A DNA stretch of 30,206 nucleotides from a virus: positions 1 to 30,206 of the IMG/VR virus record IMGVR_UViG_3300030012_000623; one strand, given 5' to 3'. Below the pieces are notes generated by a model. The model was not told where the DNA came from. It searched no databases and was given only the letters and a program-made list of their open reading frames with translations. Position 1 is the first letter of the stretch, and every line of letters begins with the position of its first letter. This document shows, piece after piece, positions 5,662 through 30,206 of the stretch. The translations under genes and the position numbers were made by a program.

Positions 5662-5949
5662 ATGAAAAGAAAAAATATTAAAAATAGTTATTATGAATTG
5701 AAAAAATTATTTAGAGAAAACAAAGAGAAAGCAAAAAAAGTTAAAGTAAAATGCAAAGAAAGATTTGAAGATGTACCAGTTGAATTATCTGATAAAGACA
5801 AAGAGGGAAAGATAGAAAAAAAGGGTTATATGGATTTTTATTTAAGTATGAGAGAAAACATAAATATCAAGGATTTACTTGTTCCAAGTGGTTTGACATC
5901 AAGCGATAAAAATTATGCAAATATTAAATTTGTAAAGGATTTAGATTAA
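5662..5949 (+). CDS. Basic protein, unknown
   Basis: A 95-residue protein, strongly basic in its first half (MKRKNIKNSYYELKKLF and a Lys-rich helix to about residue 50) and more mixed after it. TGGAG lies before ATG 5662, inside the end of the previous gene; the longer reading from 5617 lies wholly within that gene and is not needed. Being next to the initiator, it could be a helicase-loading or DNA-binding partner, but nothing shows this directly. It overlaps the ParB-domain gene as TAATG. Confidence 0.6.
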   Translation: MKRKNIKNSYYELKKLFRENKEKAKKVKVKCKERFEDVPVELSDKDKEGKIEKKGYMDFYLSMRENINIKDLLVPSGLTSSDKNYANIKFVKDLD

Positions 5950-6548
5950 TGAAAGTAAAACAAATAAATATTGATAAGATAATACCTTATCATAATAATC
6001 CCAGGAAAAACCAAGCAATAGATAAGGTTGCAAGTTCAATAAATGAATACGGATTTCAACAACCTATAGTAGTTGATTCAAATATGGTTGTTATTGTAGG
6101 GCATACTAGATTATTGGCATCAAAAAAACTTGGTTTAAAAAAAGTACCAATAGCTATTGCTGATTTATCTAAAAGCCAGGCAAAAGCTTATAGGTTAGCT
6201 GATAATAGAACAAATGAAGATAGTTCTTGGAACGAAGAATTATTAAAAGGAGAATTGTTAGATTTAGAAGGTTTATTAAGTTCAACTGGTTTTGAAGAAA
6301 GCGAATTAGAAAAGTTATTAGAAGAACCAGAACCAGAAGATGATGCAGATATTGTTTTTTCGGAAGAAATAGGAGAAACAAATAACTATGTAGTTTTAGT
6401 TTTTAAAAATGATATTGATTGGCTTTCTGCACAAACTCATTTTAATTTACAGACAGTAACAAGCAAAAGACAAAATGGGAAAGCCTGGAGCAAAGGTATT
6501 GGAAGGGTTTTAGATGGTGCAAAATATTTAACAGAGTTGAATAAATGA
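5949..6548 (+). CDS. ParB-domain (ParB/Srx fold) protein
   Basis: A 199-residue protein. Residues 1-95 are a ParB N-terminal-type domain: YHNNPRKN (14-21), SINEYGFQQPIVVD (30-43), the GHTR box (51-54) and the ADNR turn (84-87). Residues 110-140 are a Glu/Asp-rich linker. The end holds YVVLVF, then DWLSAQTHFN and KGIGRVLDGAKYL, a small C-terminal module seen in related phage proteins. Phage members of this fold bind nucleotides and DNA, and some nick DNA; many sit beside terminases and DNA-modification genes. Here it overlaps a TAGT glycosyltransferase by ATGA, which suggests the two act together on phage DNA. Confidence 0.82.
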   Translation: MKVKQINIDKIIPYHNNPRKNQAIDKVASSINEYGFQQPIVVDSNMVVIVGHTRLLASKKLGLKKVPIAIADLSKSQAKAYRLADNRTNEDSSWNEELLKGELLDLEGLLSSTGFEESELEKLLEEPEPEDDADIVFSEEIGETNNYVVLVFKNDIDWLSAQTHFNLQTVTSKRQNGKAWSKGIGRVLDGAKYLTELNK

Positions 6549-7267
6549 GGATAATTTCACCAAGTTATAAAAGGGCAAAAAGTGTAAAAACTCATAAATT
6601 AATAAAATCTGTAAGTTATGCAGTACATGAGTTTGAAGCAGAAGAATATAGAAAAGAAGGGTTTGAAGTAATTGTTTTACCAGATTCAACAAGGGGAAAT
6701 ATTCCAAATGTTAGAAATTGGTTATTGGATCAAAATATTAGAAATGAAATATTATTTATAGATGATGATATTGAAAGTTTTAATTATTGGGAAAATTGCA
6801 AACAAATAAAATTAAATGGTGAAAGATTACTAGAACATATTGAAATAATGTTAGAATTAGCAAAAAGTTGGGGAGTTTCATTATTTGGAGTAAATCCTGC
6901 AAGTGATAAGGGAAGCTATAGAGAATATACACCATTTAGCACAACAAGTTATATATCGTGTTCTTTTCATGGGTTGATAAATTGCAAACATAGGTATGAC
7001 CCAAACTTACCTTTGAAAGAGGATTACGATTTTTGCATACAAATATGTAATGATGAAAGACAAATATTAAGATTCAATCAATATTCATTAACAAAGAAAG
7101 ACCATGGCAATATTGGTGGTTGTGCTGATTACAGAACATTGGAAAGAGAAAAAGAGCAGATAAAAGCATTTCAAAAAAAATGGGGAAAAGAAATAGTACA
7201 AGAAGATAAATCAAGTAAAGGGTTTGATATTAACCCAATAGTAAAAATACCAATTAGAGGGGTATAA
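6545..7267 (+). CDS. TET-associated glycosyltransferase (TAGT)-like protein
   Basis: A 240-residue GT-A-type protein with the marks of the TAGT family: ISPSYKRAKS (4-13), GNIPNVRNWLLD (51-62), the metal/nucleotide-sugar DxD site FIDDDIESF (Asp73-75), YTPFSTTSYIS (128-138), LKEDYDFCIQ (157-166), an LRFNQY strand, and the closing KKWG. Known TAGTs add sugars to hydroxymethylated cytosine in phage DNA made by a TET/JBP oxygenase. No methylase, TET enzyme or nucleotide-modifying enzyme is recognisable elsewhere in this genome, so its acceptor is open: host-modified bases, a different base, or protein. It is joined by overlaps to the ParB gene and the small terminase. Confidence 0.78.
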   Translation: MRIISPSYKRAKSVKTHKLIKSVSYAVHEFEAEEYRKEGFEVIVLPDSTRGNIPNVRNWLLDQNIRNEILFIDDDIESFNYWENCKQIKLNGERLLEHIEIMLELAKSWGVSLFGVNPASDKGSYREYTPFSTTSYISCSFHGLINCKHRYDPNLPLKEDYDFCIQICNDERQILRFNQYSLTKKDHGNIGGCADYRTLEREKEQIKAFQKKWGKEIVQEDKSSKGFDINPIVKIPIRGV

Positions 7268-7572
7268 TGGCAAGACCTAAAAAGTATAATATTGACCCAA
7301 AGCAAGTTCAAAAGTTATCTGCATTAGGTTGTACTAATAAAGAAATATCTGAATTTTTTGGTTGTTCAGCAGACCTCCTGGAAAAGAGTTATTCGGAATT
7401 TCTGACAAAAGGAAGGGCAGAACAGCGAATAAGACTAAGACAGTTACAATGGAAGTCAGCAGAAAAAGGTAATGTTACAATGCAAATATTCCTGGGAAAA
7501 AATATGCTTGGACAACAAGATAGAATTGAAACAAATGAATTAGAAGAACCATTGGTGTGGTCTGCTGATTGA
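7267..7572 (+). CDS. terS: Terminase small subunit
   Basis: A 101-residue protein with an HTH (SALGCTNKEISEFFGCSADLL, residues 17-37) followed by a helical part and the signature KGNVTMQIFLGKNMLGQQD (residues 70-88), which I know from many small terminases placed just before the large subunit. It should bind the packaging site on phage DNA and recruit the large subunit. It overlaps the glycosyltransferase gene as TAATG and the large subunit gene by one base. Confidence 0.82.
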   Translation: MARPKKYNIDPKQVQKLSALGCTNKEISEFFGCSADLLEKSYSEFLTKGRAEQRIRLRQLQWKSAEKGNVTMQIFLGKNMLGQQDRIETNELEEPLVWSAD

Positions 7573-8789
7573 TGCCTTTAACTAAACCACAAAAAAAAGT
7601 AATTGAAGATGAATCAAGATTTAGAGTTTTAATAACTGGAAGGAGATTTGGAAAAACATTCCTGGCAATAAATGAATTAGCAAAGTTCGCAAGTCAACCA
7701 AATAAAAAAGTTTGGTATGTTGCACCAAGTTATAGACAAGCAAAAGCTATTTGTTGGAGTGTGTTAAAAGAAAAGATGATTTATCATAAATGGGTGAAAA
7801 GCATTAATCATAGTGATCTTACACTTACTTTAAAAAATAATTCACAAATATCTCTTAGAGGTTCAGACAATGAAAATTCATTAAGGGGTGTTGGTTTACA
7901 CTTCCTGGTAATGGACGAGTTCGCAGATATTGACAAACAAGCATGGTACGAGGTTTTAAGACCAACTTTATCTGATACAAGAGGACATGCTTTATTTTGT
8001 GGAAGTCCAAGGGGATTTGGCAACTGGAGTTATGAATTATTTAAACAAGGTGAAACAAACAATGATTGGCAATCTTTTAAATATACAACATTGGAAGGTG
8101 GGCAAGTTTCTGATGATGAAATAGAACAGGCTAAACAGGATTTGGATTTAAGAACATTTCAACAAGAATACGAAGCGACATTTGTAAATTATTCTGGTAT
8201 GATATATTACAATTTTAGCAGAGATAAAAATATAATAGAAAAGTATAATAAAAATTTTCAGTTTTTGCATATTGGATTAGATTTCAATGTAGACCCAATG
8301 ACAGCAGTAGTTTGCAATATTGAAGGCGAGAAAGTCCTGGTTGTTGATGAAATACAAATATATTCTTCAAATACAAATGAAATGTGTGAAGAAATTAAAA
8401 ACAGATATAAAAATAAAAATATTATTGTTTATCCAGACCCAAGTGCAAGACAAAGGAAAACTTCTGCTGGTGGCACAACAGATTTAGCTATTTTAAAAAA
8501 TGCAGGATTTGACGTAAGATGTAAAAATACTGCACCACTGGTTAGAGATAGAATAAATGCAGTTAATTCAAAACTTAAAAATGTTAATGGCAAAAATAAT
8601 TTATTTATTGTATCATCTTGCAAGAATGTCATTAAAAGTTTAGAAAGACAGATATACAAAGAGGGCACACATATTCCAGATAAAGAAAGTGGTTATGATC
8701 ACATGAATGATGCACTAGGTTATTTGATAGAATATAATTTTCCATTAAGAAGGAATTTTGTGTCTAGCCCACAGAAAAGGTGGAGTTAA
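7572..8789 (+). CDS. terL: Terminase large subunit
   Basis: A 405-residue packaging ATPase-nuclease. Visible parts: Walker A TGRRFGKT (22-29), Walker B FLVMDEFAD (Asp115-Glu116), coupling motif FCGSPRGFG, then the RNase-H-like nuclease with DFNVDP (Asp237), PDPSAR (Asp289) and DHMNDALGY (Asp376, Asp380). All key residues are present, so ATPase and cleavage should both work. ATG 7572 overlaps the small-subunit stop; the TTG one codon earlier is unlikely. Length is slightly short but within range. Circular permutation of the contig would fit headful (pac) cutting, but this is not proven. Confidence 0.95.
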   Translation: MPLTKPQKKVIEDESRFRVLITGRRFGKTFLAINELAKFASQPNKKVWYVAPSYRQAKAICWSVLKEKMIYHKWVKSINHSDLTLTLKNNSQISLRGSDNENSLRGVGLHFLVMDEFADIDKQAWYEVLRPTLSDTRGHALFCGSPRGFGNWSYELFKQGETNNDWQSFKYTTLEGGQVSDDEIEQAKQDLDLRTFQQEYEATFVNYSGMIYYNFSRDKNIIEKYNKNFQFLHIGLDFNVDPMTAVVCNIEGEKVLVVDEIQIYSSNTNEMCEEIKNRYKNKNIIVYPDPSARQRKTSAGGTTDLAILKNAGFDVRCKNTAPLVRDRINAVNSKLKNVNGKNNLFIVSSCKNVIKSLERQIYKEGTHIPDKESGYDHMNDALGYLIEYNFPLRRNFVSSPQKRWS

Positions 8790-19013: not shown

Positions 19014-19580
19014 ATGGCTAGAGGTTTAACAAGTGCAGTAAAAACAGAACTAGCTACCGGAGTAATAGAATCTGTTTTATTGATAGATATAGATTTTTCA
19101 ACAAGAGTATATTTAACAAATGCTAGTTTCGATATTACATCAAGTGTTTCTGGAAGTTCGCAAACTTATTTATCCAATGGACATTTTAGAGGAATAACCG
19201 GTGTTCAAGAAACAAATGCACCAACAAAAAATTCACTTTCTTTAAGTTTATCGGCTGTAGACCAAACGTATGTAGCATTAGCTCTTACCGAAAATATTAT
19301 TAATAAAAATGTTTTTATTTATCAAGGTTATTTAGATTCAAACTTAGCATTGATTCCAGACCCATTTTTATTATTTTATGGAACAATAGATGAATTTAAA
19401 GTTGCAGATAATACATCAACAGCAACATTAGTTTTGATAATAAGTTCACATTGGGGAAATTTTAGCAAAAAAAGTGGAAGGACAACTTCAAATAATTCAC
19501 AACAAAGATTTTTCCCAACAGATTTAGGAATGAATTTTAGTGCATTGACAGTAAGAGATATTAAATGGGGTAGAGAATGA
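19014..19580 (+). CDS. Minor tail protein (DUF2163/gpL-like)
   Basis: A 188-residue beta-rich protein: ESVLLIDIDFSTRVYLTNAS, SGSSQTYLSNGHFRGI, NSLSLSLSAVDQTYVALAL, VFIYQGYLDSN, LLFYGTIDEFKV. This is the hub-type fold found between the distal tail and tip proteins in lambda- and GTA-like tails. It should form the ring that carries the tip protein. The end overlaps the GNAT gene by ATGA. Confidence 0.75.
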   Translation: MARGLTSAVKTELATGVIESVLLIDIDFSTRVYLTNASFDITSSVSGSSQTYLSNGHFRGITGVQETNAPTKNSLSLSLSAVDQTYVALALTENIINKNVFIYQGYLDSNLALIPDPFLLFYGTIDEFKVADNTSTATLVLIISSHWGNFSKKSGRTTSNNSQQRFFPTDLGMNFSALTVRDIKWGRE

Positions 19581-20020
19581 CTAGTACTCATTTATATTAT
19601 GCAGAAAAATCAGACGTTGAAAGCATCTATGAACTAGCTATAGAATATAAAAATGTTGATTTGTCAGATGCTGATTATCCAGATATTGACAGAAATAAAT
19701 TAATTAATTTTATCAATACAATGTTAAAAAAAGGTAAAATTATGTTAATGAAAGATTTAGACAAAGATAGATTAATTGCTTGTTGTATGTTTAATAAATC
19801 TGAATATTTTTTTAGTAAAACAGAAATTATGCAAATACAAATAGTATATGTAAAAAAAGATTATAGAAATTTTAATTTAGTAAAAACATTAATTGATAGT
19901 GTAAAAAAACAAGCTGATGGATTGCCTTTAGTTTTATCAATAACTTCTGGTTTAGGTATTGACCCAGTTTTTCAAAAACTAGGTTTTAAAAATATGGGTT
20001 CTAATTGGAGATATATATAA
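19577..20020 (+). CDS. GNAT-type acetyltransferase in the tail operon
   Basis: A 147-residue protein with the GNAT plan: N-terminal helix after HLYYAEKSDVESIYEL, strands KIMLMKDLDKDRLIACCMFN and IMQIQIVYVKKDYRN, a helix NLVKTLIDSVKKQ, then LVLSITSG and FQKLGFKNMGSNWRYI. The acetyl-CoA loop is loose (DYRNFNLV, not the classic Q/R-x-x-G-x-G/A), so catalysis is likely but not certain. It sits where lambda has tail-tip assembly gene K. It could acetylate a tail protein or a host target. Overlaps gpL-like upstream; the J-like gene begins directly after. Confidence 0.75.
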   Translation: MTSTHLYYAEKSDVESIYELAIEYKNVDLSDADYPDIDRNKLINFINTMLKKGKIMLMKDLDKDRLIACCMFNKSEYFFSKTEIMQIQIVYVKKDYRNFNLVKTLIDSVKKQADGLPLVLSITSGLGIDPVFQKLGFKNMGSNWRYI

Positions 20021-30009: not shown

Positions 30010-30206
30010 ATGCAATTCAATATCAACGGTGTTATCAAATTTCAAAATGAAAAAGATTTTACAACCTATTGTGAAAGTAAGGGTTATGAATATCTTGGGA
30101 AAGAAATTAGATCACACATTAAAGAACAACTTTTTCTAAAACCTAAATTCAAACAATTATGTGGACCTTGTTATGATGGCGAAAATTCAGTTCGCTATGA
30201 AACTTG
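30010..30206 (+). CDS. 5' part of the small gene spanning the join
   Basis: Starts MQFNINGVIKFQNEKDF and runs off the window end; the rest is at 2-130, for 74 residues in all. The sequence around YCESKGYEYLGKEI suggests a small alpha/beta fold. No family recognised. It is the first gene after the control region and hairpin copy 3, so it is probably among the earliest expressed, with the ArdC-N-like gene directly after it. Confidence 0.72.
   Translation, partial: MQFNINGVIKFQNEKDFTTYCESKGYEYLGKEIRSHIKEQLFLKPKFKQLCGPCYDGENSVRYET
30105..30206. repeat. Terminal redundancy, right copy
   Basis: Same 102 bases as 1-102 with T at 30108 in place of G at 4. Indicates a closed circle or permuted ends. 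Confidence 0.93.

Follow-up and report, generated by a model that had tools for sequence, protein, structure and literature searches.

TET-less ParB–TAGT gene pairs upstream of phage terminases are probably a widespread DNA-glycosylation cassette

In the Gordonia phage CaiB, ParB and TET genes lie before the terminase, as described in PMC9302106; thus, the pre-terminase position was already known for modules of the TET type. The TAGT glycosyltransferase of phage T6 acts on DNA, adding a second sugar to hydroxymethylcytosine (hmC) that is already glucosylated, and solitary TAGT homologs without an alpha- or beta-glucosyltransferase have been counted in 288 of 753 phage genomes as 'potential novel transferases' (both from PMC13216743). 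A first-pass annotation of the DNA analyzed here had assumed that TAGT enzymes decorate hmC made by a TET oxygenase. This assumption is too narrow, because the T6 enzyme uses glucosylated hmC and a PF12851 search for TET in T6 was negative. The open-licence literature yielded no description of a ParB–TAGT pair without TET; an earlier mention elsewhere is possible.

The window and its ParB–TAGT pair

The window, i.e., the whole stretch of DNA analyzed (30,206 nucleotides), derives from a marine virus. It probably represents a complete genome, as had been supposed, since its ends repeat with 101 of 102 bases identical. The nearest cultured phages of its large terminase subunit are the pelagiphages HTVC111P, 202P, 026P and 112P (57–58%), which suggests a SAR11-type host. 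The features of the module and its surroundings are as follows.

1–102 and 30105–30206, no strand: terminal repeat, 101 of 102 bases identical, one mismatch
5949–6548, plus strand: ParB_N-domain protein, 199 aa (open reading frame and Pfam match), residues 1–131 with a predicted ParB/Srx-type fold
6348–6545, plus strand: C-terminal domain of this ParB, hereafter ct, about residues 134–199 (from alignment; no Pfam match)
6545–7267, plus strand: TAGT-family glycosyltransferase, 240 aa, predicted GT-A fold (Pfam PF20691 and structure model)
6761–6769, plus strand: DDD motif of the TAGT, residues 73–75, in 75 of 75 aligned rows
7013–7030, plus strand: LKEDYD motif of the TAGT, residues 157–162, with E159 in 70 and D160 in 74 of 75 rows
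7267–7572, plus strand: terminase small subunit, TerS (PHROG phrog_309, E 4.7e-9)
7569–8789, plus strand: terminase large subunit, TerL (PHROG phrog_2, E 9.5e-45)

The overlapping ParB and TAGT genes that the first-pass annotation had recognized by their motifs are both present as open reading frames, and both exceed their Pfam cut-offs (ParB_N, E 2.9e-10 and 40.5 bits against a cut-off of 26.3; PF20691, E 5.3e-19 and 69.4 bits against a curated cut-off of 27.5). The ParB carries NPR at residue 17, GHTR at 51 and ADNR at 84. The two genes share the ATGA at 6545–6548, and the pair indeed lies directly before the terminase: the TAGT gene shares base 7267 with that of TerS, and the TerL gene follows with an overlap at 7569–7572. 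By analogy with GT-A enzymes, the DDD motif is a putative metal and nucleotide-sugar site, and we take the ED of LKEDYD to be the catalytic-base region expected in inverting GT2 enzymes. The Pfam scan of the window covered 20 ORFs in all, many of which had no family match. Elsewhere in the window, an ORF at 100–411 matches the N-terminal domain of the anti-restriction factor ArdC (PF08401, E 1.1e-7), and a GNAT acetyltransferase lies amid tail genes at 19577–20020 (PF00583, 21.6 bits).

The structural model of the ParB (pLDDT 83.9, pTM 0.57) superimposes on CTP-bound ParB (7bnr) with a Z of 15.2 over 127 residues, all within residues 1–131, and on PadC (6ryk) with a Z of 12.9; sulfiredoxin and a serine kinase match too. 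Position 52, which corresponds to the catalytic Glu of the GERR motif in partition ParBs, is His in 42 and Asn in 36 of 78 rows, and never Glu. A nucleotide-dependent role would fit the modeled fold. The ParB had also been proposed as the DNA-reading part of the pair. Neither the model nor Pfam supports this proposal: the structural match ends at about residue 131, and Pfam gave no helix-turn-helix (HTH) of the kind that binds parS.

The TAGT model (pLDDT 90.9) adopts a GT-A fold and matches GT2/GT-A enzymes; at the sequence level, no PDB relative scores below E 0.2. The best Foldseek match is AvpGT (9jma/9jn3, E 9.4e-7), which is GT2-like as the window TAGT is, yet shares only 15–16% identity with it, at a TM of 0.54. 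According to PMC11959488, AvpGT is a nucleoside 3′-O-glucosyltransferase that does not tolerate 2′-deoxynucleosides. We take this match only as a lead toward a possible 3′-OH acceptor. Z values are tied across many GT2 enzymes, among them glycan, teichoic acid and protein transferases.

Conservation of the pair and of its place

Both genes are under purifying selection, with dN/dS values of 0.07–0.29 against five relatives, two of which gave identical values. In a first search of viral contigs, a ParB gene lay upstream of TAGT in all 22 relatives, including one (L013) in which it is split over two frames. Because this gene order recurs in distant relatives and both genes are under purifying selection, the pair is more than a chance arrangement.

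The ct domain, i.e., the last 66 residues of the ParB, is well conserved (F152, D157, R186 and G190 in 78 of 78 rows), and the pairing could be followed through it. With an older ct model, 195 loci showed a ct-ParB no more than 1.6 kb upstream of 255 TAGT ORFs; 6 further TAGT ORFs were at a contig edge, and 3 lacked a ct-ParB, namely those of T6, L019 and L020, the latter two having a first TAGT copy that follows a ParB without ct. When TAGTs were clustered at 50% identity, again with the older model, 18 of 19 clusters had an upstream ct-ParB, one of the 18 probably being a Microbacterium cluster; the exception was L210, whose ParB has no ct. We rebuilt the model without the ParBs of KaiHaiDragon and Javan291, which left 131 distinct ct-ParBs as compared with 135 before; all 131 have a TAGT no more than 1 kb downstream, and 80 ct loci had been fetched by the ct pattern rather than via TAGT. 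The ParB of Javan291 matches the rebuilt model with an E of 4.5e-21. Microbacterium phages were rejected as members of the ct class, as their ParB reaches only E 0.94, and their 56 tblastn hits are counted solely as remote relatives; KaiHaiDragon, in which PF20691 is silent, is likewise a remote relative only.

Contigs carrying the TET-less module represent at least seven bacterial phyla or classes (Phycisphaerae, Verrucomicrobia, Acidobacteria, Bacteroidota, Lentisphaerae, Negativicutes and Spirochaetes), and a Streptococcus prophage carries it as well. On genome contigs of named bacteria, 13 of 15 loci have the upstream ct-ParB; L203 is truncated by the contig edge, and the ParB of L210 is again the one without ct. 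Among the 135 distinct ct loci of the older model, 78 are simple pairs, 41 contain at least two TAGTs, 6 have an S-adenosylmethionine (SAM) methyltransferase between ParB and TAGT, and 10 have another gap. The six methyltransferases (185–191 aa; L126, L138, L147, L154, L168 and L169) occupy the slot of the first TAGT in tandem loci. Neighbor clustering over 54 dereplicated loci gave no third gene family near the module in more than 8 of them, apart from terminase and late genes, and a PADLOC search with the pair matched the ParB_N part only.

Of 207 TAGT loci, 171 have a TerL of the window type, usually 300–500 bp 3′ of TAGT. In many of the others, a different TerL family lies downstream: phrog_38 in L015, L018, L120, L137, L202 and L153, phrog_15 in L035, L117 and L147, and phrog_5653/3717 in L210; in L197, L198 and L208, where one ORF each was scanned, no TerL was found. 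Thus, ct modules keep this position with at least three families of TerL. By itself, this synteny shows a shared place rather than a shared function, and it may reflect a mere hot spot for accessory genes.

TET-bearing sister modules and the search for acceptor-making enzymes

A sister layout consists of a ParB without ct, followed by TAGT and TET, upstream of TerS and TerL. In L210, a Flavobacteriaceae contig, the ParB–TAGT pair is followed by a TET/JBP gene above the Pfam cut-off, which carries the PHROG label 'queuine tRNA-ribosyltransferase', here rejected. A set of such loci comprises 64 distinct TET genes, with a ParB upstream of 57 (the other 7 being at an edge) and a TAGT upstream of 51. 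The two versions exclude each other: none of the 131 ct loci has a TET, and all 64 TET genes are in loci without ct, in sets that were retrieved with the window or L210 as the reference for similarity and so represent two neighborhoods rather than all phages. In a tree, the TET-linked TAGTs form a group separate from most TAGTs linked to ct, at moderate support (90/81); a single TET-linked row is placed elsewhere, and some of the long branches are not stable. The ct model found no match at E < 10 among 82 TET-linked ParB ORFs (55 distinct), and no homology was detected between the ct tail and those of ParBs linked to TET or to Mom (hhalign probability 0.3 and 0.1 of 100, respectively). The ParB tail would thus be specific to the enzyme it serves.

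Further sister loci vary in their enzymes. Some TET-type units contain additional sugar enzymes (Gly_transf_sug in L219 and L226). Between ParB and TET, L235 (2743–4155) encodes a TAGT with some 220 extra N-terminal residues that by eye resemble a PIG-L-type deacetylase and have no Pfam match. L249 and L247 are TET modules without TAGT, in which a gene of 301–319 aa between ParB and TET may encode another transferase. Genes gp17–19 of the cultured pelagiphage HTVC112P (L305:510–2732) encode a ParB, a TET/JBP-like oxygenase and an FkbM methyltransferase, about 1.8 kb upstream of TerL; HTVC111P, 202P and 026P have no annotated ParB in that place. The gp18 protein, annotated as DnaJ/SNF2, matches the TET model instead.

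Partners other than TET also occur. In L209 (3919–5894), a second ParB_N gene lies directly before two Mom-family genes, after the ParB–TAGT pair, and in L097 ParB_N is fused to an N6/N4 DNA methylase. A candidate of this kind, the 'DNA modification methylase' of Javan386 (L026:3992–5092), is a ParB_N fused to DUF4417 and no methylase; it was apparently named after its ParB portion. Since ParB_N domains stand beside TET, Mom and DNA methylases, a ParB with a DNA-modifying enzyme is, on the basis of these gene neighborhoods, a general layout, and ct is the mark of its oxygenase-free sugar version. The TAGT of the window had been called an orphan. In one sense this is wrong, in that the pair belongs to this wider family of ParB-linked modification modules. 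TET-less pairs, for which a survey had been proposed, proved common and constitute a distinct version.

The first-pass annotation had recognized no methylase, oxygenase or nucleotide-pathway gene in the window. For TET, C5-methylase and thymidylate-synthase types this is borne out by dedicated searches; the general Pfam scan covered 20 ORFs. PF12851 detected no TET in any of 42 whole records with ParB–TAGT modules, the window included. This search had no positive control at first; L210 and the later TET set supplied them, with 17 of 19 records of the set positive, the misses being T6 and L301, for which the locus scan predicted no TET. An alignment-based TET model was negative in the same 42 records and positive in three of three controls, all of which are among the 15 sequences it was built from; H188, D190 and H239 are invariant across these. 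Most of the records are fragments, with genes beyond their ends out of view, and two are complete genomes of named phages, Javan291 and the remote relative KaiHaiDragon. The 131 ct loci without TET are stretches with a median of 8.7 kb, and the whole-record searches covered the 42.

No dCMP or dUMP hydroxymethylase of the thymidylate-synthase fold (PF00303) was found in the 42 records, as compared with 9 positives in 14 control genomes. The C5-methylase model PF00145 had no match in the window and two, both short, in the 42 records. It was also negative in all 18 members of the TET set, which hints that the TETs there oxidize thymine, as JBP does, or use host 5-methylcytosine. A C5-methylase therefore does not define ParB–TET modules either.

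Proposed function and comparison with known systems

The first-pass annotation had proposed a two-gene DNA-decoration system with ParB as the reader and a possible role in marking DNA for packaging. What stands is that the unit is real, comes without TET or hydroxymethylase, is conserved alongside the terminase and probably has DNA as its target; reader and packaging mark are unproven. We somewhat favor the view that the pair is a late phage DNA-modification cassette, in which the TAGT would use a nucleotide sugar, made by the host or supplied by the phage, to glycosylate phage DNA. The protein with the ParB/Srx fold would serve as its dedicated partner and bind a nucleotide, and ct would link the enzyme to DNA or to the apparatus for packaging. 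Glycosylation would occur late, near packaging, and the sugar would shield the DNA from host nucleases. The acceptor would be either a chemical group of ordinary DNA or a base modified by the host, as opposed to 5hmC or 5hmU from a phage TET or hydroxymethylase. The DNA cassette is supported by the layout shared with TET-linked TAGT modules, by the action of the T6 enzyme on DNA, and by ParB_N proteins that precede Mom genes or are fused to a DNA methylase. Against it counts the tie of the TAGT fold with glycan, teichoic acid and protein GT2 enzymes, and the SAM methyltransferase of some loci is also compatible with sugar added to a different target.

Several accounts compete over the acceptor. 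One, which we regard as unlikely, is that ParB(ct)–TAGT glycosylates DNA with no hydroxylated base at all, either at an exocyclic amine of an unmodified base or at the 3′-OH of ends and nicks left by the neighboring terminase, with ct presenting this unmodified acceptor and so removing the need for TET. Direct glycosylation of ordinary DNA would add a new type of chemistry to DNA modification, and a 3′-OH acceptor at terminase-made ends or nicks would yield sugar-capped virion DNA. There is a similarly small chance that the phage adds only the sugar, to a host-modified base such as a 5-hydroxymethyl base or a deazaguanine. The lack of a recognizable phage-encoded acceptor-maker is in line with this, and borrowing from the host may be usual, given that the TET-type modules have no C5-methylase either; however, the TET-less module spans at least seven bacterial phyla or classes and a Streptococcus prophage, and we know of no hydroxylated base common to all these hosts. 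It is also doubtful that a phage hydroxylase hides elsewhere in the genome, as part of an ordinary pathway of hydroxylation and then glycosylation. The many window ORFs without a family match leave room for one, but the 54 dereplicated loci share no widespread third gene except terminase and late genes, and the TET models were negative in 42 of 42 records, Javan291 and KaiHaiDragon among them.

The target itself could be a virion protein or a cell-surface glycan, with the ParB as a nucleotide-binding regulator. The nearest folds do include protein and teichoic-acid transferases, 6 of the 135 distinct ct loci include a generic SAM methyltransferase in the unit, and Corndog-type phages have candidates for capsid modification, glycosyltransferases included, between their portal and protease genes (PMC4351075). 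We nevertheless hold such a target to be quite improbable, because the family member of known activity, that of T6, acts on DNA, and because the other partners of ParB_N are TET, Mom and DNA methylases.

Among the known systems closest to the favored DNA-modification cassette are the ParB–TET/JBP modules of CaiB (PMC9302106), L210 and viral contigs. These have the same combination of a ParB-like gene with modification genes, small overlaps and a place before the terminase; they differ in having a TET/JBP and no ct (0 of 55 distinct ParBs), whereas the window has ct and no TET. The T6 beta-glucosyl-HMC-alpha-glucosyltransferase belongs to the same family (PF20691, 37.2 bits as compared with 69.4 for the window) and has a GT-A fold as well (PMC13216743). 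Unlike the window TAGT, it has no neighboring ParB and adjoins a gene annotated as thymidylate synthase, which we take for a dCMP hydroxymethylase. CTP-binding ParB/Noc and PadC are alike in the ParB_N domain and its fold, and the window ParB differs from ParB/Noc by His or Asn in place of the GERR Glu and by a C-terminal domain of its own. Thus, some of the solitary TAGTs gain a context: they accompany a specific ParB that has a tail of its own, lie at a set position ahead of the terminase and, in the loci examined, never occur with TET. The question of what orphan TAGTs act on is now tied to named phages, a Javan291-type prophage of Streptococcus marmotae and, for the TET-bearing version, HTVC112P.
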